Positions 2,319 through 29,832 of a DNA stretch of 29,832 bases are shown here, in pieces (position 1 is the stretch's first letter; the number at the start of each line of letters is the position of its first letter). The stretch covers positions 1 to 29,832 of IMG/VR virus record IMGVR_UViG_3300046413_000896. One strand, given 5' to 3'. The translations under genes were made by a program, and so were the position numbers. The notes beneath the pieces were generated by a model. It was not told the origin of the DNA and made no database searches. It was given only the letters and a program-made list of their open reading frames with translations. Origin of the DNA: a virus.

Positions 2319-3893
2319 TTACAGTTTTGCTTTGAATGAAATTGGTACCTCGATGAAGTCTGCAGTGACTGTTGGCTGGATGGCCACACCTACCACAATC
2401 TTACCGGTACTGAGAATGTTCTGTGTGTCGCTGATAGTCACCTTGAAGCCACTGATCTCTCCTGCTGCCTGCATCTGCGAGCCTACAGGGATAACTGCGC
2501 TGTCAAACACCTGGATAGAGGTGTAAGATATGGTGCCGTCAGCATTGAGCTGTATCTGGCTTTTCAGCAGGTCTATGATTGCTCCGTATACCAGCCTAAC
2601 TGCCTTCATCATGGTCCTTGTACGGCTGATGCGGTAGTATGGGCTTGTCTGCGCAATGTTGGTCCAGTCGTTGTTGAAGAACGTACCAACCTTGTTAGGT
2701 ATTGTGGTAGCGAACAGATAGCGGTACGCGTCCAGTTGGTCAAGCAGAGAGCTCGCCAGTGTGCTTACCTTGTTACCATTGGCCAGTGCAGGAACAGCCA
2801 TCTCAGTGCCATCACTGACATTGAAAGCGCCTATCTCACCGATGTCCTGGTTAACAGCGGCTACGCTCAGACAACCGAGTGTATTGCCGATGTCCTGTAT
2901 GCTCACGCCGCTGTTGATGTACAGCTGTGCGCCTGCTGCCTCACCATCCTGGTGGATGTCAGTAGTCACGAAGTAGTTACTTACGTTCTGCTGGTTCTCC
3001 AGTGTAGATGGATCAGTTATTGCTTTGATGTTTGGTGCGTAGATGATGGCTCCAAGCGGGTTGTATGCGCCAAAGAGATCCTCTCCACGTGCCTGTAGTT
3101 TAGTGCCGTTGGCTGTTACGTTGGCTGCTGAAGTAGCAGTGTTGTCATACACACCCATCACCCTTATCACACCCAGTGCTGCGTTCTGCAGAGTAACTAC
3201 GTCAGCAAAGGTAGAAGATACCGAACTGAAGAAGCCTATCCACAACACGCCGCTTGTGTTCTGTGCGAAGAAACGAGATACGATGTAGTACCACAGCGCT
3301 TTATTACTTGCGACACCGGCAGTAGCACCTCCGCTACCTGTACCGAACTGCTGAGTGATGGCCGTTGTAGCCGTACCTGTAGCAGTAAGCGCAACTGGTG
3401 TTGCGGTAACAGCAGGGTTCAGGCCTATGCCTATTCCCGGACGAGCTGTCAAAGTGATAGCTCCTGCGGTGTTAGTGGCTGTGTAGCCTGTAAGATAGGT
3501 GCGTGCATTGATTGCTGCCACTACTGCTGCTGCAAAAGTGGTAGCTGTAGGAGTTGCAGGGGCTGTGCCTGTTCCCAGGTCAACCACAGTTGTGCCTGTA
3601 GGGTTGGTTGAGGTAACAGGGTTAACTTCTGTCACTTTTATCTGCAGTGTGTCGCCGGCCGTTATAGAACCACTGATGGTCACTATGGCTTTAGCAGCAG
3701 TTTCATCGCTGTAGTTGTTGCTTATGCCCTTGCTTACCGCATCTGACAGGCTGTAGACCGGTTGGTATGCGTTGGTGGCAAAGGAACCCGGAGCGGTACC
3801 GTACAAGCATATGCCTGCCACGCCATCATTGCTGAGTGCGGCCTGCCCTAAACTTTCGTTACCTAATATGAATGATACCTGACTGCGTGCCAT
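2319..3893 (-). CDS. Contractile tail sheath protein (DUF2586-like)
   Basis: The 524-residue protein starts at ATG 3893 (MARSQVSFILGNESLGQ). It forms the contractile outer cylinder that drives the tube through the envelope. The N-terminal part (VAGICLYGTAP) and the C-terminal half (DIHQDGEAAGAQLYINSGVSIQDIGNTLG, later TRTMMKAVRLVYGAIIDLLKSQ and AAGEISGFKVTISDTQNILSTGKIVVGVAIQP) have the sheath pattern: a core domain in which both ends join, followed by a polymerisation arm. Residues about 65-195 look like an inserted Thr/Ala-rich beta-sandwich (ISGSITAGDTLQIKV) that would face outward. Adjacent tube and chaperone genes support the call. Confidence 0.82.
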   Translation of the reverse strand: MARSQVSFILGNESLGQAALSNDGVAGICLYGTAPGSFATNAYQPVYSLSDAVSKGISNNYSDETAAKAIVTISGSITAGDTLQIKVTEVNPVTSTNPTGTTVVDLGTGTAPATPTATTFAAAVVAAINARTYLTGYTATNTAGAITLTARPGIGIGLNPAVTATPVALTATGTATTAITQQFGTGSGGATAGVASNKALWYYIVSRFFAQNTSGVLWIGFFSSVSSTFADVVTLQNAALGVIRVMGVYDNTATSAANVTANGTKLQARGEDLFGAYNPLGAIIYAPNIKAITDPSTLENQQNVSNYFVTTDIHQDGEAAGAQLYINSGVSIQDIGNTLGCLSVAAVNQDIGEIGAFNVSDGTEMAVPALANGNKVSTLASSLLDQLDAYRYLFATTIPNKVGTFFNNDWTNIAQTSPYYRISRTRTMMKAVRLVYGAIIDLLKSQIQLNADGTISYTSIQVFDSAVIPVGSQMQAAGEISGFKVTISDTQNILSTGKIVVGVAIQPTVTADFIEVPISFKAKL

Positions 3894-5914: not shown

Positions 5915-6982
5915 TTAGATACGCACAGGTGCTGAAGTCATGTAATCGCTTACACTCAGGATAGTGCTACCTGTTCTTGCAGGTGCCTGCTCACCGTTAC
6001 CACCGATCTGCGGTGCTTTTGGTGCCTGTGCGTTTACGTTGAGTGCTTCCAGCAGTTGTTTAGTGCCATCGAAGTCTTCAGTGGCCATCTTTGTCCACTT
6101 AGCCACTATCTCAGGCTTGTCTGCTATACGCTTGCCCTTGTGCTCGTTTACCAGAGAAGTTGCAGCCGCCAGTTTAGCGCTGTTCTCAATCTCTGTGAGT
6201 TTTGCAGTAGCCTCATCACGTTCAGCGTTTGCAAGGTTCAGCGTTTCAGTCAGCGTTTCGATCTTAGCGGCGTGTGCTGCTACTTTCTGCTCTGCTTCAT
6301 TTTTAGCTGAAAGGATATTGCGAATAGCCGCTTCCTGTGCTTCTGCGCTGGCTTCGTTATGGAGCTGCAGCATTTCGTTAATTTTGCTCATATGCTTAAT
6401 TGTTGAAAGTCTTTTTTGTATGTGCTTTTCTGAAACCGAGTTAACCTCTGTGACATCGGAGCTGTTTGTAAATTCAAGTATCTCACTGCAGTTAACCACC
6501 TCATCATACAAGCCGTATTCTTTGGCCATTTGTGTTGTGATGATCGTTTCGCTCCTCATCAGCTCTCTCATGGCATCTTTAGTGAGTGTGCTGCGAGAGG
6601 ATAGCATGGTTGCTACGCTGTCGTTCATCTCCTCTATGGTGACTCCTGCTGCGTTTACCGCTTCATGCACAAGACCGAGGCCGTGTGATGTCCAGATACG
6701 CTTGTTACCTGCCTGGTAAACCCAACCGGCTGTGCTGTCCACGATGCCCTGGTTGATGGTAGTTACGTTAAGCCCGGAGTTCTTCAGTGCGGAGTACATG
6801 CTGTAGCCTTCAGCCACATTACCACCCTTACTGTTTATCCATACCTCAACCTCCTTTTTACCAGAGCTGACAAGTGAAAGAACTTCTCTGCTGAACTGCT
6901 GTCCATCACCCTTTTTAATAACGCCATCGAGTAGCATTATCGGCTTTGCTGCCTGTGGGTTCTGTACAAAAACGTAATTCAC
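5915..6982 (-). CDS. ClpP-like prohead protease fused to scaffold domain
   Basis: I choose GTG 6982 (355 residues); a TTG at 7030 and an ATG near residue 16 are alternatives. Residues about 14-150 are a ClpP/S14-type protease: GIVDSTAGWVYQAG aligns with the ClpP nucleophile segment (Ser83), and GLGLVHEA aligns with the histidine segment (His106). The INSKGGNVAEG stretch is the oxyanion-side loop. Residues about 195-300 form a charged coiled coil (EAQEAAIRNILSAKNEAEQ onward), as in scaffolds that shape the prohead. The C-terminus is flexible, Pro/Gly-rich. An ATG at 6391 (MSKINEMLQLHNE) falls exactly at the join and could start a separate 158-residue scaffold. The capsid gene follows after about 60 bases. 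Confidence 0.85.
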   Translation of the reverse strand: MNYVFVQNPQAAKPIMLLDGVIKKGDGQQFSREVLSLVSSGKKEVEVWINSKGGNVAEGYSMYSALKNSGLNVTTINQGIVDSTAGWVYQAGNKRIWTSHGLGLVHEAVNAAGVTIEEMNDSVATMLSSRSTLTKDAMRELMRSETIITTQMAKEYGLYDEVVNCSEILEFTNSSDVTEVNSVSEKHIQKRLSTIKHMSKINEMLQLHNEASAEAQEAAIRNILSAKNEAEQKVAAHAAKIETLTETLNLANAERDEATAKLTEIENSAKLAAATSLVNEHKGKRIADKPEIVAKWTKMATEDFDGTKQLLEALNVNAQAPKAPQIGGNGEQAPARTGSTILSVSDYMTSAPVRI

Positions 6983-7018
6983 GATATAAAGATGGAAATA
7001 AGAAAATGTTATCCCTAC

Positions 7019-7034
7019 AAGGTTGCGCAACCTT
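7019..7034. promoter_or_regulatory. Perfect 16-bp palindrome, candidate operator
   Basis: AAGGTTGCGCAACCTT is a perfect palindrome with no loop, lying directly after the RHH gene stop and before the protease start. With no spacer it is a poor hairpin but a good dimer-binding site. Proximity suggests it is bound by the RHH protein encoded next to it; this is inference. Confidence 0.45.
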
Positions 7035-10544: not shown

Positions 10545-10918
10545 TAGTTTTTACCTGCGAGTCCTATTATTTTACCTTTTACTTGTTCCGGCTCCACCTG
10601 CACATTGCCGATGATGCCTGTGAGTCCTTCTCTGATGAAGTCTATCACTTCAGGAGAGAAAGCGTCCTGTGGTGCTGCCAGTATCTGCCTGAGATCACCT
10701 ATGCTTATTGCCCAGACGATCTTCTGGCTCTGAGCCTTGCGCATAGTGTCGACTGTGCTCTCAGCCATGTCTATCGTTTCGTCAAGGTCTTCACCGAAGG
10801 CCTCTATCTCTTTCAGCAGACCCATGAGCTTTTCAGCCTTGGCTGTCAGCACATTGAGTGTTTCCAGTGCGCGTTCAGCGTCTATCTCAAATTTGTTTGT
10901 TACGGTGCTACCTTCCAT
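10544..10918 (-). CDS. Small helical virion-module protein, unknown
   Basis: The 124-residue protein starts at ATG 10918, 19 bases inside the gpG-like gene, so the two are likely translationally coupled. Residues 10-60 form an acidic amphipathic helix with heptad-like leucines (ALETLNVLTAKAEKLMGLL, then IEAFGEDLDETIDMAEST), suggesting a coiled coil. The rest (VIDFIREGLTGIIGNVQ) is compact. No family recognised; assembly or joining role is only suggested by its neighbours. Confidence 0.6.
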   Translation of the reverse strand: MEGSTVTNKFEIDAERALETLNVLTAKAEKLMGLLKEIEAFGEDLDETIDMAESTVDTMRKAQSQKIVWAISIGDLRQILAAPQDAFSPEVIDFIREGLTGIIGNVQVEPEQVKGKIIGLAGKN

Positions 10919-11397
10919 ATTAGTCCTGTTTTGGTTTGGAGAATGTTTATTTGAATTACTGTTAGTGCTTCTGTTTGCTTCATAAATGGCCTTGCAGGCA
11001 TATATGGCGTTCCATCATTCACATACCCGGCGTATGGTACCGGGTTAATCATCACGCTCACCGCACCCCAATTTGTTATGCTGCTGTCGGCCTTTACCGT
11101 CTTGTACCTCAGTCGTCCCGATGTACCAGCTATTATCTTCCTTGTCTGCCAGTCCGTTCCCTGATCTCTCTTGAACATCTTGCCTGACGGCTTGTTTATC
11201 CCTTTCACTACCTGGTTCTCGTGGTACATGTTGCCAGGTGTGCGCCTCGCTACTTCTTCCCACTTATCACTGCCCAGCTGCTCTTTGTCAAAGGCCTCTC
11301 CGAAGTAAACCTTTGAGGCCTTCATTATGTCTATAGCCGCACTCTTGATGGCAGGCTTCAGCGCATCTGCTACCTTGCCAAACCCGAACTTGCTCAT
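10900..11397 (-). CDS. Virion morphogenesis / head-tail joining protein (Mu gpG or HK97 gp10-like)
   Basis: The 165-residue protein starts at ATG 11397 (MSKFGFGKVADALK). The C-terminal phrase YAGYVNDGTPYMPARPFMKQT is the hallmark of the gpG/gp10 family: a tyrosine near G, then the PARPF signature, with a helix following. The N-terminal helix (ALKPAIKSAAIDIMKASKVYF) is also usual. These proteins complete the connector between head and tail. The length fits the family range. It overlaps the next gene by 19 bases. Confidence 0.78.
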   Translation of the reverse strand: MSKFGFGKVADALKPAIKSAAIDIMKASKVYFGEAFDKEQLGSDKWEEVARRTPGNMYHENQVVKGINKPSGKMFKRDQGTDWQTRKIIAGTSGRLRYKTVKADSSITNWGAVSVMINPVPYAGYVNDGTPYMPARPFMKQTEALTVIQINILQTKTGLIWKVAP

Positions 11398-11398
11398 A

Positions 11399-11905
11399 TT
11401 ACCCGATTTCAGGCTCGCCGTACATTGTCTGCTCGAACAGCATCACTGCGTCACCATCGTTAACGTCTATCTGCGCCAGCCTGTCACAGATGTTCTTGCT
11501 CTCCGCCACACTGCTGCGTTGTATCTCCACGAACTCAGCGAATATGTTGAACGCAGATATGTCTATCCTGAAAGCCTCTTTAGCGTTCGTGTCGTACTGC
11601 ATGTATAGCGCCTGCTCAATGGCTTTCTGTCCGTATATCGTGTCAGCAAAGCTCTCAAAGTCCTGTGCTACTGCGAGGGCAGGCATCTTTACCTTGCAGC
11701 CCCAATCACGCAAGAAATTTATTATTTTCTGCGCATGCGTCAACTCTGCTTCTGCCTCCTTGTCGTAGTAGCTGGCTGCATTGAAATAGCCGTTAAGGTT
11801 ACACCACGTTGCAGCAGCACGGTAGAAGTAGAACGCTGTGTACTCGTCCTTCAACCTGTCCTGAAACAGGTCCATAAGCGGCAGTATAGGATTGAAGTCT
11901 TCCAT
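11399..11905 (-). CDS. Ferritin-like diiron protein in the head gene cluster
   Basis: The 168-residue protein starts at ATG 11905, sharing one base with the portal stop. It follows bacterial ferritin closely in length and order: helix A with LKDEYTAFYFYRAAATWC, helix B with EAEAELTHAQKIINFLRDWG, helix C around YGQKAIEQAL, helix D with FNIFAEFVEIQ, and a short C-terminal helix. Iron ligands that can be placed against E. coli FtnA are Glu21, Glu54, His57 and Glu97; Glu124/Glu127 lie near the last site, but the FtnA Glu130 position seems shifted. If active it would oxidise and store Fe(II); it might instead be structural. No iron gene stands next to it. Portal lies upstream, gpG-like gene downstream. 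Confidence 0.7.
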   Translation of the reverse strand: MEDFNPILPLMDLFQDRLKDEYTAFYFYRAAATWCNLNGYFNAASYYDKEAEAELTHAQKIINFLRDWGCKVKMPALAVAQDFESFADTIYGQKAIEQALYMQYDTNAKEAFRIDISAFNIFAEFVEIQRSSVAESKNICDRLAQIDVNDGDAVMLFEQTMYGEPEIG

Positions 11906-13353
11906 TATCGTTTTATTGCGGCTATTGCCTGTGTTTTCTTAGGCGTGTTGTCACGCTTCATGTTGTCGTTCTTGATAGGGTCTTTGCCTTGTGCCTGCAT
12001 CTTAGGATCACGTATCACGTTCTTGTCGGGCATCACCTCTATGCGTGAGCACTTGATGCCTGTCATGTTTGTGAACTGCGCAGGATCCATCTGCAGCCCT
12101 GCTTGGGCCATTGTGAGGCCGAGGGTGGCTATCTTCTGGTTCTTGTCTGCCTCCTGTGCTGCTATAGCCCTCTCCTCCGTATCATTGAGGAAGTGTATCT
12201 TAGCACCCTGTGGTAAGCGGACTCCGAGGTTACGGAGCTTAGGTATCACGCTTTCGTTCACAATGTTGGTAACGAAGTCACCATCTATCATGCGCTTGGC
12301 GTTCATGGCCTTAGCTACCTGCGTATTACCCATCGTGTCACGGGTAGCGTCACCGCCACCGCTGTTCTGGCTACCACCTGCCAGAGGCTCAGTAGTGCTG
12401 TCCACGAAGTTGGCGTGTCCACCTATCCATTTGCTGATGTCGCTCTTGGCTCTGTGGTCAAAGTCATTATAGGCCTTGTAGCCGTTACCACGGCTGCCAT
12501 CGTTGAGGAAAGACAGCTCGTCAGTAAGTCCGGTTATCATGTAGCCGTTATGGCCCATGTCACGCATCGCTGCTTGCTTCTTGGCCATCTCCTCCTCATC
12601 TGTGTCGTTGGTCTTCAACACACGATAAGGCTGCGCAAACATCTCAATGAAGTCAGTGTTGTACTGCACGTTGTTACGCTGGAGGATTTCCAGTGCAGAC
12701 ACTATGTACAGCAGACCGTAGCCACAGCCGTTAATACCGTTCTCCTGCAGGGTTGGTACCCATATGTGCCACGGCTCATACTCGCTGCTGTCCCAGCTAT
12801 ACCCGTTAGGTGACTTCTCGTATATTGAAACGTGCTTACGGTCAGGAGAGATGTTCCACCTCTTGACACAAACCAGCTTGTCAGGCACATTGTCTACTAT
12901 CTCACCAATACTGATAAGGCTGTAGCCGTAATAAGTAGCATCGAGTATCATGCCCAGCATCTGCTGCTTGAACCACGCCTTCTCAAAGTACTCCGTCCAT
13001 TCCTCCAGTTTGTTACCGTTGCTGTCTACTATCTCAAAGTCACGCAGCAGCGTGAGCTCCTTGCGGCGCTGCATACATGCCGCAACGTGCGCATTGAGCC
13101 TCGTCTTCTCGTAGAGCTTCTGCATCGTGACCCGGAATGGCCACCCTGCCTGCTCTGCCTCTGATTTAGCCTCTACCCAAGTTGAAAGGTCAACCTTGGC
13201 CTGCTCATAACTCTTTGGGAATATGACATTACTAAGGTTGTGCGAAGGTAGTTTGCTACCTCCGGCATCACGTATGAACGCTTGCGAGCTGTTAGGGCCG
13301 CTACCAGCTCCCTGAAACCCCATCCATGCGCCTACCCTATTAAAGAAACCCAT
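11905..13353 (-). CDS. Portal protein (DUF935 / Mu gp29-like)
   Basis: The 482-residue protein starts at ATG 13353 (MGFFNRVGAWMGF). The portal is the ring at one head vertex through which DNA passes. The order fits the Mu gp29-like family: RLNAHVAACMQRRKELTLLRDFEI, GMILDATYYGYSLISIGEI, a crown-side segment WNISPDRKHVSIYEKSPNGYSW, then EILQRNNVQYNTDFIEMFAQPYRVLKTN, and FLNDGSRGNGYKAYNDFDHRAKSDISKWIGG. Family size is usually 450-550 residues. It lies two bases after the adaptor gene and leads into the ferritin-like gene. The basic C-terminus (DNTPKKTQAIAAIKR) is typical. Confidence 0.84.
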   Translation of the reverse strand: MGFFNRVGAWMGFQGAGSGPNSSQAFIRDAGGSKLPSHNLSNVIFPKSYEQAKVDLSTWVEAKSEAEQAGWPFRVTMQKLYEKTRLNAHVAACMQRRKELTLLRDFEIVDSNGNKLEEWTEYFEKAWFKQQMLGMILDATYYGYSLISIGEIVDNVPDKLVCVKRWNISPDRKHVSIYEKSPNGYSWDSSEYEPWHIWVPTLQENGINGCGYGLLYIVSALEILQRNNVQYNTDFIEMFAQPYRVLKTNDTDEEEMAKKQAAMRDMGHNGYMITGLTDELSFLNDGSRGNGYKAYNDFDHRAKSDISKWIGGHANFVDSTTEPLAGGSQNSGGGDATRDTMGNTQVAKAMNAKRMIDGDFVTNIVNESVIPKLRNLGVRLPQGAKIHFLNDTEERAIAAQEADKNQKIATLGLTMAQAGLQMDPAQFTNMTGIKCSRIEVMPDKNVIRDPKMQAQGKDPIKNDNMKRDNTPKKTQAIAAIKR

Positions 13354-13354
13354 G

Positions 13355-14308
13355 TTAGTAGTTATTTACGTTTTTTATATCTCCACCCGTCCTTGTCTTC
13401 AACCCTCTCTGCGGCTGTACCATAGGCAGCACCAATGTGGTGAGGCCTTGCGCAGCATCGTTGAGGTCTGATAGCACGCCTCTGTAGTCCTCAAGCCAGT
13501 GTTCCGGCTTGTTACCCGGTGCGAGCAGTGGAGATAGCCTGAACACGGTGATAACCACCATTCCCGCCTTTATCGTCTGGTTTCTGTTGTCACCTGCTAC
13601 CCACCAGTCGGTGTCAGTGAGCGGAGTGCCTGCAGGAACCAAAAATGCTGTTTTATTGTTCCAATACTTCTGTGTAGCGTTCAGCGGACTGTCGGGAAAC
13701 ACGTTCCAGAAAGGAAGGTTCTCGTAAGTCGTGTACTGTAGCTGCACCTGATGGTTCGCCACAGTGCTTGGCTGCACGTTTGTGTACTTATATCCTCTCC
13801 ACCACACTATGTCGCCTGAGTTGTACAGGTTCCTGTAGTTGAACATGGGCTTGTATGGCTCTGTCAGCGTAGCAGGTGCCGGTTCTCCCTGTATAGTGCA
13901 GTCATTAGGAAACCCTACGTAGAAGATGTCATTGGTCTTGCCTGCTAAAGCCCATTTTGACGGAAGGAAAGTAGCGTCACTGTTGCCAGTGATGCAGAAA
14001 TAGCCAGAACCGAGATGAATGACGGCTGCGCCCACCACATAGACAGTGCTGGCCGCCCACTCAGTGAACCCTGACGCTGACAAAGCTATGGTTGCACGCT
14101 CTCCTGCCCCATATGCGCGGGTTTTATCCCATGGAGCGGTCGCTGTGAGTTCTAAATCAAGATCGTATTTCTGTGTAATACGCTGAACTACGTCCTGCAT
14201 GGCCTGTTTTTCAGCAATAAGTCGCTTGTCAGGATCCGCCTGCGTCAGTTGTCGCAGATAGTCGCCCTGAATGTAGGTCTTATAATCGTTTAGTACAAGA
14301 TATCCCAT
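13355..14308 (-). CDS. Head-tail adaptor (DUF1320/Mu gp36-like) with large internal insertion
   Basis: ATG 14308 (MGYLVLNDYKTYIQ) gives 317 residues; a TTG 12 bases upstream is less likely. Residues 1-56 (LNDYKTYIQGDYLRQLTQAD, then helix to YDLDLEL) match the start of DUF1320 adaptors. The last ~70 residues (MVVITVFRLSPLLAPGN, EDYRGVLSDLNDAAQG, TLVLPM) match their end, where a helix and VxExYxxALxWL-like segment close the fold. Between them lie about 190 residues with two CBM-like aromatic patterns (WAASTVYVVGAAVIHLGSGY; LYNSGDIVWWRGYKY). Normal family members are near 140-160 residues, so an insertion is likely. It would sit between portal and tail, facing outward. Split-domain reading is inference. 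Confidence 0.6.
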   Translation of the reverse strand: MGYLVLNDYKTYIQGDYLRQLTQADPDKRLIAEKQAMQDVVQRITQKYDLDLELTATAPWDKTRAYGAGERATIALSASGFTEWAASTVYVVGAAVIHLGSGYFCITGNSDATFLPSKWALAGKTNDIFYVGFPNDCTIQGEPAPATLTEPYKPMFNYRNLYNSGDIVWWRGYKYTNVQPSTVANHQVQLQYTTYENLPFWNVFPDSPLNATQKYWNNKTAFLVPAGTPLTDTDWWVAGDNRNQTIKAGMVVITVFRLSPLLAPGNKPEHWLEDYRGVLSDLNDAAQGLTTLVLPMVQPQRGLKTRTGGDIKNVNNY

Positions 14309-14318
14309 AGCAAAACGC

Positions 14319-14365
14319 AAAAGCCGCTCTCAGCAAGGGTTACGGCCCTGCTTCAAACGGCTTTT
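14319..14365 (-). other. Extended hairpin in the adaptor gene leader
   Basis: An outer 8-bp stem (AAAAGCCG / CGGCTTTT) encloses an inner stem (AGCA and GGG against CCC and TGCT, one bulged base, 6-base loop). It lies 11 bases before ATG 14308. On the minus strand the outer arm ends in TTTT, so it could act as a terminator or attenuator for the terminase transcript, or as a structured 5' leader. Confidence 0.5.
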
Positions 14366-14462: not shown

Positions 14463-15974
14463 TTAAAAATAGTTGTGAGGCGACCTTTTACCCACTTTCC
14501 ACTCCATCCGCTTACCTCCTGTCTGGAACAAGCTATACTCCCGGACGAAGGCATGGCACATGATGTAGTCGAAAAGGTCGGTGAAGTGTCCCCAGCGCTG
14601 CACGCCTCTCACTCCGTCCACGGTTGTCTTGGTCTTGTCCTTGCCGTTACCGTCCGGTGACTCCGAGGTGTTCACGAAGTCAGCGATGGTATGCGTGCAG
14701 GTGGGGCTGATGGTGACAAATATGCCTCCGTAGTTGACACCGAACACTGCATTGATGAAATTACCTCTCATCGCCACGTTGGGGTTCATCTTGTCAACCC
14801 TCATCTTAGGCTTGAAGTACTCCAGGTACTCTCTTATGAGCGCATAGAAGTCCCTGCCTTTCTCCTGCTTCACGTCATCCTTGCGACTGGTGGCATCTCC
14901 GTACACGTACATGGCCGCCTGATGGTCTTTACCCATAGGCCCATACCGTTTGTATATCTCGTTGCAGACCCAGCGCAGGGTGTTGTGCGGGTTCTTGGCT
15001 GCTATCTCATCTATCATGTACAAGTTCTTACCATCCATCTGGAATATGCCCACAGGTAGGTAAGGGTTCAGGTTCTCGTCCCAGCTGATGTGGAGCGCAA
15101 GTCCGGGCTTGTACTCGCAGTGCGCTACGTGCAGTGACCGGTTGAACATCTTGTAGAAAGGCTGGCCGGTGGCGCTGACACCCCACTGACCGTTAAGGAT
15201 GGCATCCACGCGGGTAGGGTCGCCGCCTGCCTGCTGTATGAGTGAATGGCGGTAGTCCTCGTGGTCGAGAAAGTAGTTGTGTATGTATAGGGAGAAATGT
15301 TCTATGATGTTGGTCTGGATAGGTACACCCTTGTCATCCTTCAGCGGGTTCTCCTTATTGAGCAGCTCAGTCCTGATCCAGTGCTCCTCAAACACGTCAC
15401 AGTTGTTGAAGCAGCCGACAAAGCATTTCTTGGCACCCATCTTACGCAGTCGGCTCTGGAGCATACCAAAGCTCTTGAACTCGATCTGGTTCATCTCATC
15501 TATAAAGATGTGCGTAGGGTTGTCCCAGCCCTTGATACTCTCATGGTCATCACAGCCGAATGGCTTGAACTTGTTGCCGTTGGCGACACAGGTAATCTCC
15601 TTGCTGCCATTGGCGGCCTCACTGAAGCTAAACAGGTGTGCCAGCCTCATATCCTTCAGCGTACTGATGATGCTGGAGTGCAGCTCCTTTTTGGCAAGCT
15701 CAAATACCTGTCGGCCATAGTAGCACTTGAAGTACGGATCTGAGATGCACTCCAGTATCAGCTCCTGTATGCGGTCCGTGGTCTTGGAGGAGCCATACGT
15801 CCCGTACAGTATGAGCAGTTGCTTTTTCTGCGTAGCCGGTCTGTTCCACACCTGTATGAAGTGGTCGTTGACCGGAAAGCCTCCCGCGCCTCTGAGGGCT
15901 TCCTGCTGCTGGTAGGTGAGCTTCACCCACGTACTCGCAGGCACAATATGGTACCCTGGGTATTTAGTTTGCAT
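14463..15974 (-). CDS. terL: Terminase large subunit (DNA packaging ATPase and nuclease)
   Basis: The 503-residue protein starts at ATG 15974 (MQTKYPGYHIVPASTW). It pumps DNA into the prohead and cuts it. Walker A is GTYGSSKT (58-65). Walker B is HIFIDEMNQ, near residue 153. The C-terminal nuclease shows its acidic residues in LHISWDENLNPY, VYGDATSRKDD and GHFTDLFDYI, as in RNase H-fold terminases. The protein has the usual length and lies directly after the small subunit, 11 bases apart. Packaging style (headful or cos) cannot be decided by eye. Confidence 0.9.
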   Translation of the reverse strand: MQTKYPGYHIVPASTWVKLTYQQQEALRGAGGFPVNDHFIQVWNRPATQKKQLLILYGTYGSSKTTDRIQELILECISDPYFKCYYGRQVFELAKKELHSSIISTLKDMRLAHLFSFSEAANGSKEITCVANGNKFKPFGCDDHESIKGWDNPTHIFIDEMNQIEFKSFGMLQSRLRKMGAKKCFVGCFNNCDVFEEHWIRTELLNKENPLKDDKGVPIQTNIIEHFSLYIHNYFLDHEDYRHSLIQQAGGDPTRVDAILNGQWGVSATGQPFYKMFNRSLHVAHCEYKPGLALHISWDENLNPYLPVGIFQMDGKNLYMIDEIAAKNPHNTLRWVCNEIYKRYGPMGKDHQAAMYVYGDATSRKDDVKQEKGRDFYALIREYLEYFKPKMRVDKMNPNVAMRGNFINAVFGVNYGGIFVTISPTCTHTIADFVNTSESPDGNGKDKTKTTVDGVRGVQRWGHFTDLFDYIMCHAFVREYSLFQTGGKRMEWKVGKRSPHNYF

Positions 15975-15985
15975 ATTATTTTGGG

Positions 15986-16627
15986 CTATATCTCCTCGTG
16001 ATCTGTGTACTCCTCGTCCTCTGTCTGACCCGGTCCTATCTGGGCGGCCTTCGTGTGTACCTGCAGCAGGGCATCAAATTGCTCAGATGTTAATTTATGC
16101 TGCACGTTCACATTGTGGTTAACATCCTGGTTATTACCGAAGCGGCGGGGCTGGAGCTTGATAAGTTTGAATTTCATTACATCTATCATCAACTTCCGTC
16201 TGTTCGTTTCAGCGAAAGCCTCCGCGCCTGAGAGGGGCATACCGGGGTTCTCCTCTGCGTCCACTTCCCGGCCATTGTGTGTCAGCGGAGCGTTGGCGAT
16301 CCACGAGATGTCATCGTACATCAACTCTGTCTGGAACTCGCGTGCGCGGGTGTACGCGCGCCAGAAGTCTTCATGCTTACTCAACCATGTCCAGGCTGAC
16401 TTGGAAGCCACACCTACCTTCTTGCACGCCGCCTCAAAGCCCTCCTTGCCCGTGGCGAGTACATTACATATCTCCGTGGCTATCTCGATGCTGTAGCCTG
16501 TAGGCCTTCCCATCACGGCAGGTACCTTGGCCTTAAGAGGAGCTGAGGGTTTGGCCTTCTTGGCCGGTTTAGGCGCCTTCTGGGCAGACGGCTGTTTGTC
16601 TGTGAGGTCAAATAGTAGACTACTCAT
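15986..16627 (-). CDS. terS: Terminase small subunit
   Basis: I choose ATG 16627 (MSSLLFDLTDKQPS), giving 213 residues; a longer start at 16768 would overlap the upstream gene for over 130 bases. A basic Lys/Pro/Ala linker (residues 12-35) is followed by the TerS DNA-binding region: GRPTGYSIEIATEICNVLATG, then ACKKVGVASKSAWTWLSKH with the helix-turn-helix, and FWRAYTRAREFQTE. The central part (DVMKFKLIKLQPRRFG) and the acidic tail EDEEYTDHEEI are usual. It selects the packaging site and loads the large subunit, whose gene follows. Confidence 0.84.
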   Translation of the reverse strand: MSSLLFDLTDKQPSAQKAPKPAKKAKPSAPLKAKVPAVMGRPTGYSIEIATEICNVLATGKEGFEAACKKVGVASKSAWTWLSKHEDFWRAYTRAREFQTELMYDDISWIANAPLTHNGREVDAEENPGMPLSGAEAFAETNRRKLMIDVMKFKLIKLQPRRFGNNQDVNHNVNVQHKLTSEQFDALLQVHTKAAQIGPGQTEDEEYTDHEEI

Positions 16628-16629
16628 AT

Positions 16630-16833
16630 TTATACGTTTGTTAAGTTGTAAGCTGACATCCACGCAACCCAAGGAGTTCCCTGAACTCTTGAGATCTGCA
16701 CACTCCTTTGGTACCATTTTCTGCGGTCTACTACTGAATATGAGAACCCCCCGTATGGTGACCACCATCGTTTAAGGTATGCCCTTGGCCTGAGCTTTAG
16801 CACTTCTGCCTCGTAGTCAATGTAGTCCATCAT
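16630..16833 (-). CDS. Small basic aromatic protein, first gene of the leftward virion module
   Basis: ATG 16833 (MMDYIDYEAEVLKLRP) gives 67 residues; the stop at 16630-16632 is two bases before the small terminase ATG. An upstream ATG at 16908 would run through the promoter, so I reject it. The protein is rich in Trp, Tyr and Arg (LKRWWSPYGGFSYSVVDRRKWYQR). The leader is short, about 10 bases from the predicted start site. Family not recognised. It may help the terminase, or be a regulator, given that it leads the operon. Confidence 0.62.
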   Translation of the reverse strand: MMDYIDYEAEVLKLRPRAYLKRWWSPYGGFSYSVVDRRKWYQRSVQISRVQGTPWVAWMSAYNLTNV

Positions 16834-28631: not shown

Positions 28632-29832
28632 TTAAAATTTTACAAGTTCCATAAACCTTTCTACTCCATATGCACCGGTCTTTTTCAGTAGTGGCACCAG
28701 ATCTCCTGCTTTCATTTCTTTCACATCAGCCATGCCGTTGCGCTCCAGCCAGTCTTTGCATCCAAATTCACAGGCTCCGGTTACTGTTCTGTAATGCTGA
28801 ATGCTTACTACCGTATCCGCATAGATTGGCTCATTCTTCATTTTCTCGGCTACCAGCTTGAATTGCATATCCTTGATAGCATCCTTCGCTGTTTTGCCAT
28901 GCGCAGTAAAGCCATCTTTTTCAGCTACATAGCAATCCGTGCGGGTTATAACTTCTTTTTTGAGGAAATCAAAATTGTAACCGTTATATATGGTTGTGCC
29001 TTTTGTGTTTCTCTTAGAAGTAATAACGTAGCAGTAGCCATCTACATCTTTTACTTCCAGCTTCAGCTTGCCTATTCTAAGGGTTGTCAACGCCTGATTG
29101 GCGCGGAAGCATTGGCTACCTGCCTCTGTGAGTGCTGGTAAGCTGATGGTAGTCAACGCCTGATTGGAGATGAAGCAGTAGTTACCTGCCTCTGTCAGTG
29201 CAGGTAAGCTGATGGTAGTCAACGCCTGATTGGAGATGAAGCAGTCGCTACCTGCCGTTGTCAGTGCTGGTAAGCTGATGGTAGTCAACGCCTGATTGTA
29301 GCAGAAGCAGTAGCTACCTGCCTCTGTAAGTGCTGGTAAGCTGATGGTAGTCAACGCCTGATTGTAGCTGAAGCAGTAGCTACCTGCCGTTGTCAGTGCT
29401 GGTAAGCTGATGCTCGTCAACGCCTGATTGGAGCTGAAGCAGTAGCTACCTGCCGTTGTCAGTGCAGGTAAGCTGATGGTAGTCAACGCCTGATTGTAGC
29501 TGAAGCAGTCGCTACCTGCCGTTGTCAGTGCTGGTAAGCTGATGGTAGTCAACGCCTGATTGTAGCTGAAGCAGTAGCTACCTGCCGTTGTCAGTGCTGG
29601 TAAGCTGATGCTCGTCAACGCCTGATTGGAGCAGAAGCATTGGCTACCTACCTCTGTCAGTGCAGGTAAGCTGATGCTCGTCAACGCCTGATTGGAGCAG
29701 AAGCATTCGTTACCTGCCTCTGTGAGTGCAGGTAAGCTGATGGTAGTCAACGCCTGATTGGAGATGAAGCAGTAGTTACCTGCCTCTGTCAGTGCAGGTA
29801 AGCTGATGGTAGTCAACGCCTGATTGGAGATG
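28632..29832 (-). CDS. BspA-like leucine-rich-repeat protein (N-terminus beyond window)
   Basis: The frame is open to the right edge; no start codon is credited, since TTG at 29816 lies within a repeat. Eleven complete 22-residue repeats follow the form TTISLPALTEAGxxCFxxNQAL, the LRR_5/BspA type seen in Bacteroidota surface and phage proteins. After the last one come about 150 residues: LRIGKLKLEVKDVDGYCYVI, KDAIKDMQFKLVAEKM, and a tail HYRTVTGACEFGCKDWLERNG, then LVPLLKKTGAYGVERFMELV. No signal peptide can be checked. It may bind a host protein or surface ligand. Confidence 0.8.
   Translation of the reverse strand, partial: ISNQALTTISLPALTEAGNYCFISNQALTTISLPALTEAGNECFCSNQALTSISLPALTEVGSQCFCSNQALTSISLPALTTAGSYCFSYNQALTTISLPALTTAGSDCFSYNQALTTISLPALTTAGSYCFSSNQALTSISLPALTTAGSYCFSYNQALTTISLPALTEAGSYCFCYNQALTTISLPALTTAGSDCFISNQALTTISLPALTEAGNYCFISNQALTTISLPALTEAGSQCFRANQALTTLRIGKLKLEVKDVDGYCYVITSKRNTKGTTIYNGYNFDFLKKEVITRTDCYVAEKDGFTAHGKTAKDAIKDMQFKLVAEKMKNEPIYADTVVSIQHYRTVTGACEFGCKDWLERNGMADVKEMKAGDLVPLLKKTGAYGVERFMELVKF
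29088..29832 (-). repeat. Array of 66-bp direct repeats coding for LRR units
   Basis: Eleven full 66-bp units and a partial one encode the 22-residue LRR repeats. They are almost identical in DNA, with changes concentrated in the codons for residues 10, 13, 14, 17 and 18 of each unit. Near-identity at DNA level invites gain or loss of units by recombination. Confidence 0.88.

Follow-up and report, generated by a model that had tools for sequence, protein, structure and literature searches.

A ferritin gene in the head operon of a Mu-like phage and its relatives: a phage branch with an apparently retained catalytic iron site

Why a phage should encode a ferritin in the midst of its head genes is the question raised by a locus of the virus record IMGVR_UViG_3300046413_000896 (IMG/VR), analysed here over positions 1 to 29,832 (hereafter the window). 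The initial annotation had offered three roles for this gene, namely a cargo protein delivered with the DNA, an iron-scavenging aid to the host, and a structural reuse of the fold. As summarized in Table 1, the coordinates assigned to the ORF were right, and the coding strand was the minus strand, the plus strand carrying an internal stop at this position. The ORF, running from 11905 to 11399, comprised 168 codons with an ATG start, and its product, described earlier as equal in length to bacterial FtnA, was indeed close in size to the cellular ferritins compared herein. Its placement between portal and gpG-like genes was likewise borne out by the matches obtained on either side. The start of the ferritin gene overlapped the stop of the portal gene (TAATG), the ATG of the gpG-like gene lay one base past the ferritin stop, and both GC (0.495) and GC3 (0.645) fell between the extremes seen in the adjacent head genes. 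The gene is thus integrated in the head operon with a composition matching its neighbours, and the gene order and overlap suggested that it is expressed together with the head genes, late in infection.

Table 1. Features of the window considered in this study
Feature	Position	Strand	Evidence
DUF2586 protein, probably tail sheath (inferred)	2319..3893	minus	PF10758 7.1e-21
Clp-fold head maturation protease	5915..7030	minus	PF00574 5.4e-16; phrog_94
gpG/neck1-like protein	10900..11397	minus	phrog_5 1.1e-5
Phage ferritin, 168 aa	11399..11905	minus	Pfam, PDB phmmer, AlphaFold model, ligand alignment
Mu-type portal	11905..13353	minus	PF06074 2.7e-38; phrog_113
Gp36-type adaptor with CBM5/12-like insertion	13355..14320	minus	PF07030 0.0034, PF02839 4.7e-5; both below Pfam cut-off
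Terminase large subunit	14463..15974	minus	PF04466 1.5e-19
Terminase small subunit	15986..16768	minus	PF20901 2.2e-18

The ferritin homology of the encoded protein was real and far beyond chance. The protein matched Pfam Ferritin (PF00210) with an E-value of 7.8e-12 and 45.8 bits (gathering cut-off 24.5), Ferritin and Rubrerythrin being its only Pfam matches, and bacterial ferritins were the best sequences in a phmmer search of the PDB (best 1.7e-8) as well as the best match of the family profile (5c6f, 5e-26). Its score against the FtnA equivalog NF007638 was 33.2 bits, below the cut-off of 178. An AlphaFold2 model built from a 30-sequence alignment (mean pLDDT 92.3) showed the five helices A-E of a classical ferritin (residues 8-37, 41-67, 86-114, 116-143 and 151-162), that is, a four-helix bundle followed by a short helix E. 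The top 50 Foldseek matches of this model in the PDB were ferritins and one bacterioferritin (query TM 0.80-0.88 among the top matches), and its comparison with the ferritin from V. cholerae (3qz3) by VIA-align gave a Z of 22.1 and 1.5 A over 159 residues. The residues named earlier as iron ligands (Glu21, Glu54, His57 and Glu97) were in register with FtnA Glu17, Glu50, His53 and Glu94, while Gln129 and Tyr28, which complete the centre, corresponded to FtnA Gln127 and Tyr24. These six FtnA residues constitute the A/B ferroxidase centre, and the positions of Glu49, Glu126, Glu129 and Glu130, which form the bacterial C-site, were occupied by A53, I128, S131 and S132 in the window protein. Both the profile search and the model of the single subunit upheld the ferritin assignment of the initial annotation. 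A reading of the conserved C-terminus as a cargo peptide was dropped, as this segment lies in the ordinary ferritin helix E.

A scan of IMG/VR with four sequences identified 52 loci encoding relatives, some of them near-duplicates, and all 30 aligned members matched both Pfam Ferritin (E<=0.01) and phrog_16594, a family without an assigned function. When 31 phage sequences were aligned with seven cellular ferritins, Glu17, Tyr24, Glu50, His53, Glu94 and Gln127 (FtnA numbers) were found to be kept in 31/31 phage sequences, whereas Glu49, Glu126, Glu130 and Trp122 were lost in 31/31 and Glu129 in 25. At position 46, every phage sequence had Glu where the cellular ferritins have His or Gln, and the Gln-x-x-Ser/Ala pattern of the phage ferritins recalls that of animal H chains. 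The maximum-likelihood tree separated the phage sequences from the cellular ferritins with 100/100 support, a monophyly to be read in view of the retrieval of the loci by a signature peptide and of the comparison with only seven cellular ferritins. Within the phage branch, the window ferritin was the deepest member, on a long branch (1.3). The pairwise dN/dS among the relatives ranged from 0.03 to 0.21. As judged from the alignment and the tree, the phage ferritins appear to form a distinct branch in which the catalytic iron site is kept and the bacterial C-site is lost, and their turnover may differ because of the loss of these C-site ligands.

The separation in the tree also bears on the origin of the gene. 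Ferritins are common in bacteria, and PF00210 was found in 14/14 control genomes, which counts in favour of the window gene being a recently acquired host gene, or an assembly artefact, having no role in the phage. This accidental origin nevertheless seems highly improbable to us, given the separate branch, the neighbour-like composition and the frame overlapping the portal stop, together with the core status of relatives in a phage lineage described below. As for the distribution outside IMG/VR, a tblastn search of INPHARED with three family members as queries detected no relative, and a further search gave matches at chance level only. A search of genome contigs yielded two with a family ferritin, one of which carried T4-like phage genes; in the other, the ferritin adjoined a dUTPase-like ORF, as in viral loci. 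Among 192 genomes of the phylum of the contig carrying T4-like genes, one other match was obtained, and it was weak.

In the direction of transcription, the genes of the window are arranged in the order of TerS, TerL, adaptor, portal, ferritin, gpG/neck1-like protein, tail and baseplate genes, Clp-fold protease and DUF2586 protein. The portal has relatives in phages of Bacteroides, Flavobacterium, Porphyromonas and Winogradskyella, and thus a Bacteroidota host is likely. In the Flavobacterium phage lotta8-1 and the Winogradskyella phage Peternella_1, the corresponding order is TerL, adaptor, portal, MuF (SPP1 gp7 family), small ORFs and gpG; the window ferritin therefore occupies the place that MuF takes between portal and gpG in related Mu-like phages. 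With a threshold of E<=10, PF04233 (MuF) went unmatched throughout the 29.8 kb record, which may be a fragment, so that a MuF gene elsewhere is possible. The portals of Mu-like phages proved, on alignment, too divergent to serve for another scan, and single-sequence scans of IMG/VR with the portal and TerL detected no near kin of the window phage. As separate observations on the window, the Gp36-type adaptor (13355-14320) has 321 aa including the CBM5/12-like insertion, perhaps a carbohydrate-binding module at the neck, versus 140-190 aa in related phages, and the ORF at the end of the record (28632-29816) contains about ten LTTISLPALTEAGNYCFISNQA-type repeats and looks leucine-rich and BspA-like by eye.

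The position in the slot of a minor head protein, with the MuF match absent from the record, counts in favour of two alternative explanations. One is that the fold has been reused as a component of the head or neck substituting for MuF, the iron site being a relic. A purely structural reuse is disfavoured by the retention of the iron-centre ligands throughout the relatives and by evident purifying selection: the five ferroxidase ligands and the Tyr are invariant across the family, dN/dS is well below 1, and other relatives are located outside head modules. We consider this explanation quite unlikely, and it is the one of the three initially proposed roles that fared worst. The other is that ferritin subunits or cages are packaged in the head, close to the portal and where MuF would otherwise be, to act in the particle or to enter the next host with the DNA, and the same slot and missing MuF match are in its favour.

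Packaging would also suit a group of podovirus-like relatives (contigs up to 87 kb), in which the ferritin lies between giant virion-type proteins. Matches to terminase, portal and virion proteins were found upstream of the ferritin on the same strand, and the giant protein downstream has a DarB-like stretch, its phage matches including PLxRFG/DarB-like proteins. This lineage was sampled through its portal, and of the 17 records taken (about 30 kb or longer), 12 had the ferritin, which accounts for every contig that covers its locus (12/12); in the remaining five, to judge from where the portal lies, this locus apparently fell outside the contig. Retrieval via the downstream giant protein gave the ferritin directly upstream in 21/21 loci. 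The ferritin looks like a core gene in this 60-70 kb podovirus-like lineage, and its fixed position between the giant proteins counts in favour of virion cargo. With regard to the giant proteins themselves, the ORF directly upstream of the ferritin (e.g., L020:1200-7967:+ and L001:1952-5998:+) is very variable (780-2650 aa) and ends with a conserved C-terminal -CP in nearly all cases (not in L036 and L042), and the downstream protein usually starts with MAxPCK; these ends could be interaction or sorting tags. One ferritin-bearing contig of this kind also has an ORF starting MKKVICWWSGGITSAVACK (L071:6940-7818) that is PAPS-reductase-like by eye, PAPS reductase being another ROS-linked gene named in PMC6802176.

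In a second group, of T4-like relatives, a tail-protein-like ORF and an aminotransferase are found in the vicinity of the ferritin. A prohead protease of the gp21 type (PF03420) is present in this group and a Gp23 capsid match was obtained in two members, while a 208 kb relative gave neither match. Most T4-like members possess an N-terminal extension ending in [LI]xE-Q. Prohead proteases of the gp21 kind cut after Glu, and leaders of 10-20 residues target proteins into the head in T4 (PMC5694885, PMC3012670). The extension, with the protease and capsid genes nearby, would therefore be in line with packaging. We compared the leader with internal windows and by a leave-one-out ungapped profile. 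The motif [LIVMF]xEQ occurred 27 times at the N-termini of the other proteins of these phages versus a mean of 11.4, with 0/1000 draws reaching 27; however, enrichment was also seen for some control motifs, and the ferritins did not stand out in the profile. The leader as a capsid-targeting sequence is thus suggestive only. The window protein, moreover, has no such leader, and PF03420 gave no match in the window. Apart from the ferritins, many proteins of the T4-like and 208 kb phage contigs (L182-L194, L197-L207) carry at their start a short leader, basic in character, that terminates in [LI]xE, often EQ (e.g., MKTIKLTESDIQRLVKKVLNEQ); such leaders are over-represented at the N-termini in these contigs and are possibly capsid-targeting.

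The third group adjoins genes for nucleotide metabolism, the ferritin being located beside dUTPase with RNR, UvsX and DnaB-type helicase genes near, and not among head genes. This arrangement is at variance with virion cargo and supports a role inside the cell. Furthermore, an assembled 12-nm ferritin cage could not leave through the tail channel. Virion cargo is accordingly an explanation that we take seriously but hold to be less than probable. On balance, we favour the view that the window encodes a true ferritin, probably active in catalysis and belonging to a phage-specific branch, which is produced during late infection to control iron and ROS within the cell. Retention of the ligands and the Tyr, the presence of helix E and the selection on the relatives all point to a ferritin with a functioning ferroxidase. 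At the diiron centre (A site Glu21/Glu54/His57; B site Glu54/Glu97, Gln129 being close by), Fe(II) would be oxidised, and a cage of ferritin subunits, provided that it assembles, would store the ferric product, by which free Fe(II) and Fenton chemistry would be lowered in the infected cell during phage DNA synthesis and packaging. The site of action would then be the cell and not the virion, although the constant location of the gene amid virion-type genes in two lineages is equally consistent with virion cargo. Of the roles initially proposed, an iron-related aid during infection is thus favoured over cargo. Ferritin, Dps and Mn-catalase of phages have likewise been read by earlier authors as ROS/iron control (PMC6802176, PMC8008677 and PMC6669764). 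Because the catalytic iron site is retained in the ferritin branch, these phages probably handle iron while infecting, and they may do so within the particle itself.

Among known systems, FtnA (PF00210; NF007638; PDB 3qz3, 1krq, 1eum) shares helices A-E, the A/B ligands and Tyr24 with the window protein, but the identity in structural alignments is 17-23%, and the phage branch is without the C-site Glu49/126/130 and Trp122 and has Glu in place of His/Gln46. The phage ferritins in BFVD (A0A6J5MFB8, A0A8D9C9X5), compared by name and fold alone, have the same fold (query TM 0.73-0.86, target TM 0.86-0.95) and phage origin. Ferritin in freshwater phages has been mentioned (PMC6802176), and so the existence of phage ferritins, a few of which are annotated in BFVD, is already known; a search of openly accessible papers turned up no work treating these proteins as a family. 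The Dps-like proteins and Mn-catalases of Gratiaviridae and Lactobacillus phages (PMC8008677, PMC6669764) belong to the same ferritin-like superfamily with a proposed iron/ROS role, but they are members of the Dps or catalase families, whereas the window protein has the ligands of classical ferritins and helix E. As far as our tools show, a phage ferritin branch that has lost the C-site, is core to one lineage and holds a fixed place among late genes appears to be new, and so does the presence of a ferritin where a Mu-like phage would have MuF; proteins of the MuF/SPP1 gp7 type (PF04233) share that portal-gpG position and differ in fold. With its third iron site altered and its genes fixed among the late genes of unrelated phages, this branch opens to direct test both the control of host iron by phages and the older issue of virion-borne iron. 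Encapsulins pair an HK97-fold shell with a ferritin-like iron protein, and the window ferritin would be alike if it is cargo, although here the shell is a tailed-phage head and the C-terminal motif is an ordinary helix E. It is conceivable, if rather unlikely in our estimation, that several unrelated phage lineages package active ferritin in their HK97-fold heads as a standard component, the MuF position having been taken over in the window phage; such particles, with an iron-oxidising or iron-bearing cargo, would be the virion counterpart of the encapsulin-ferritin compartments.
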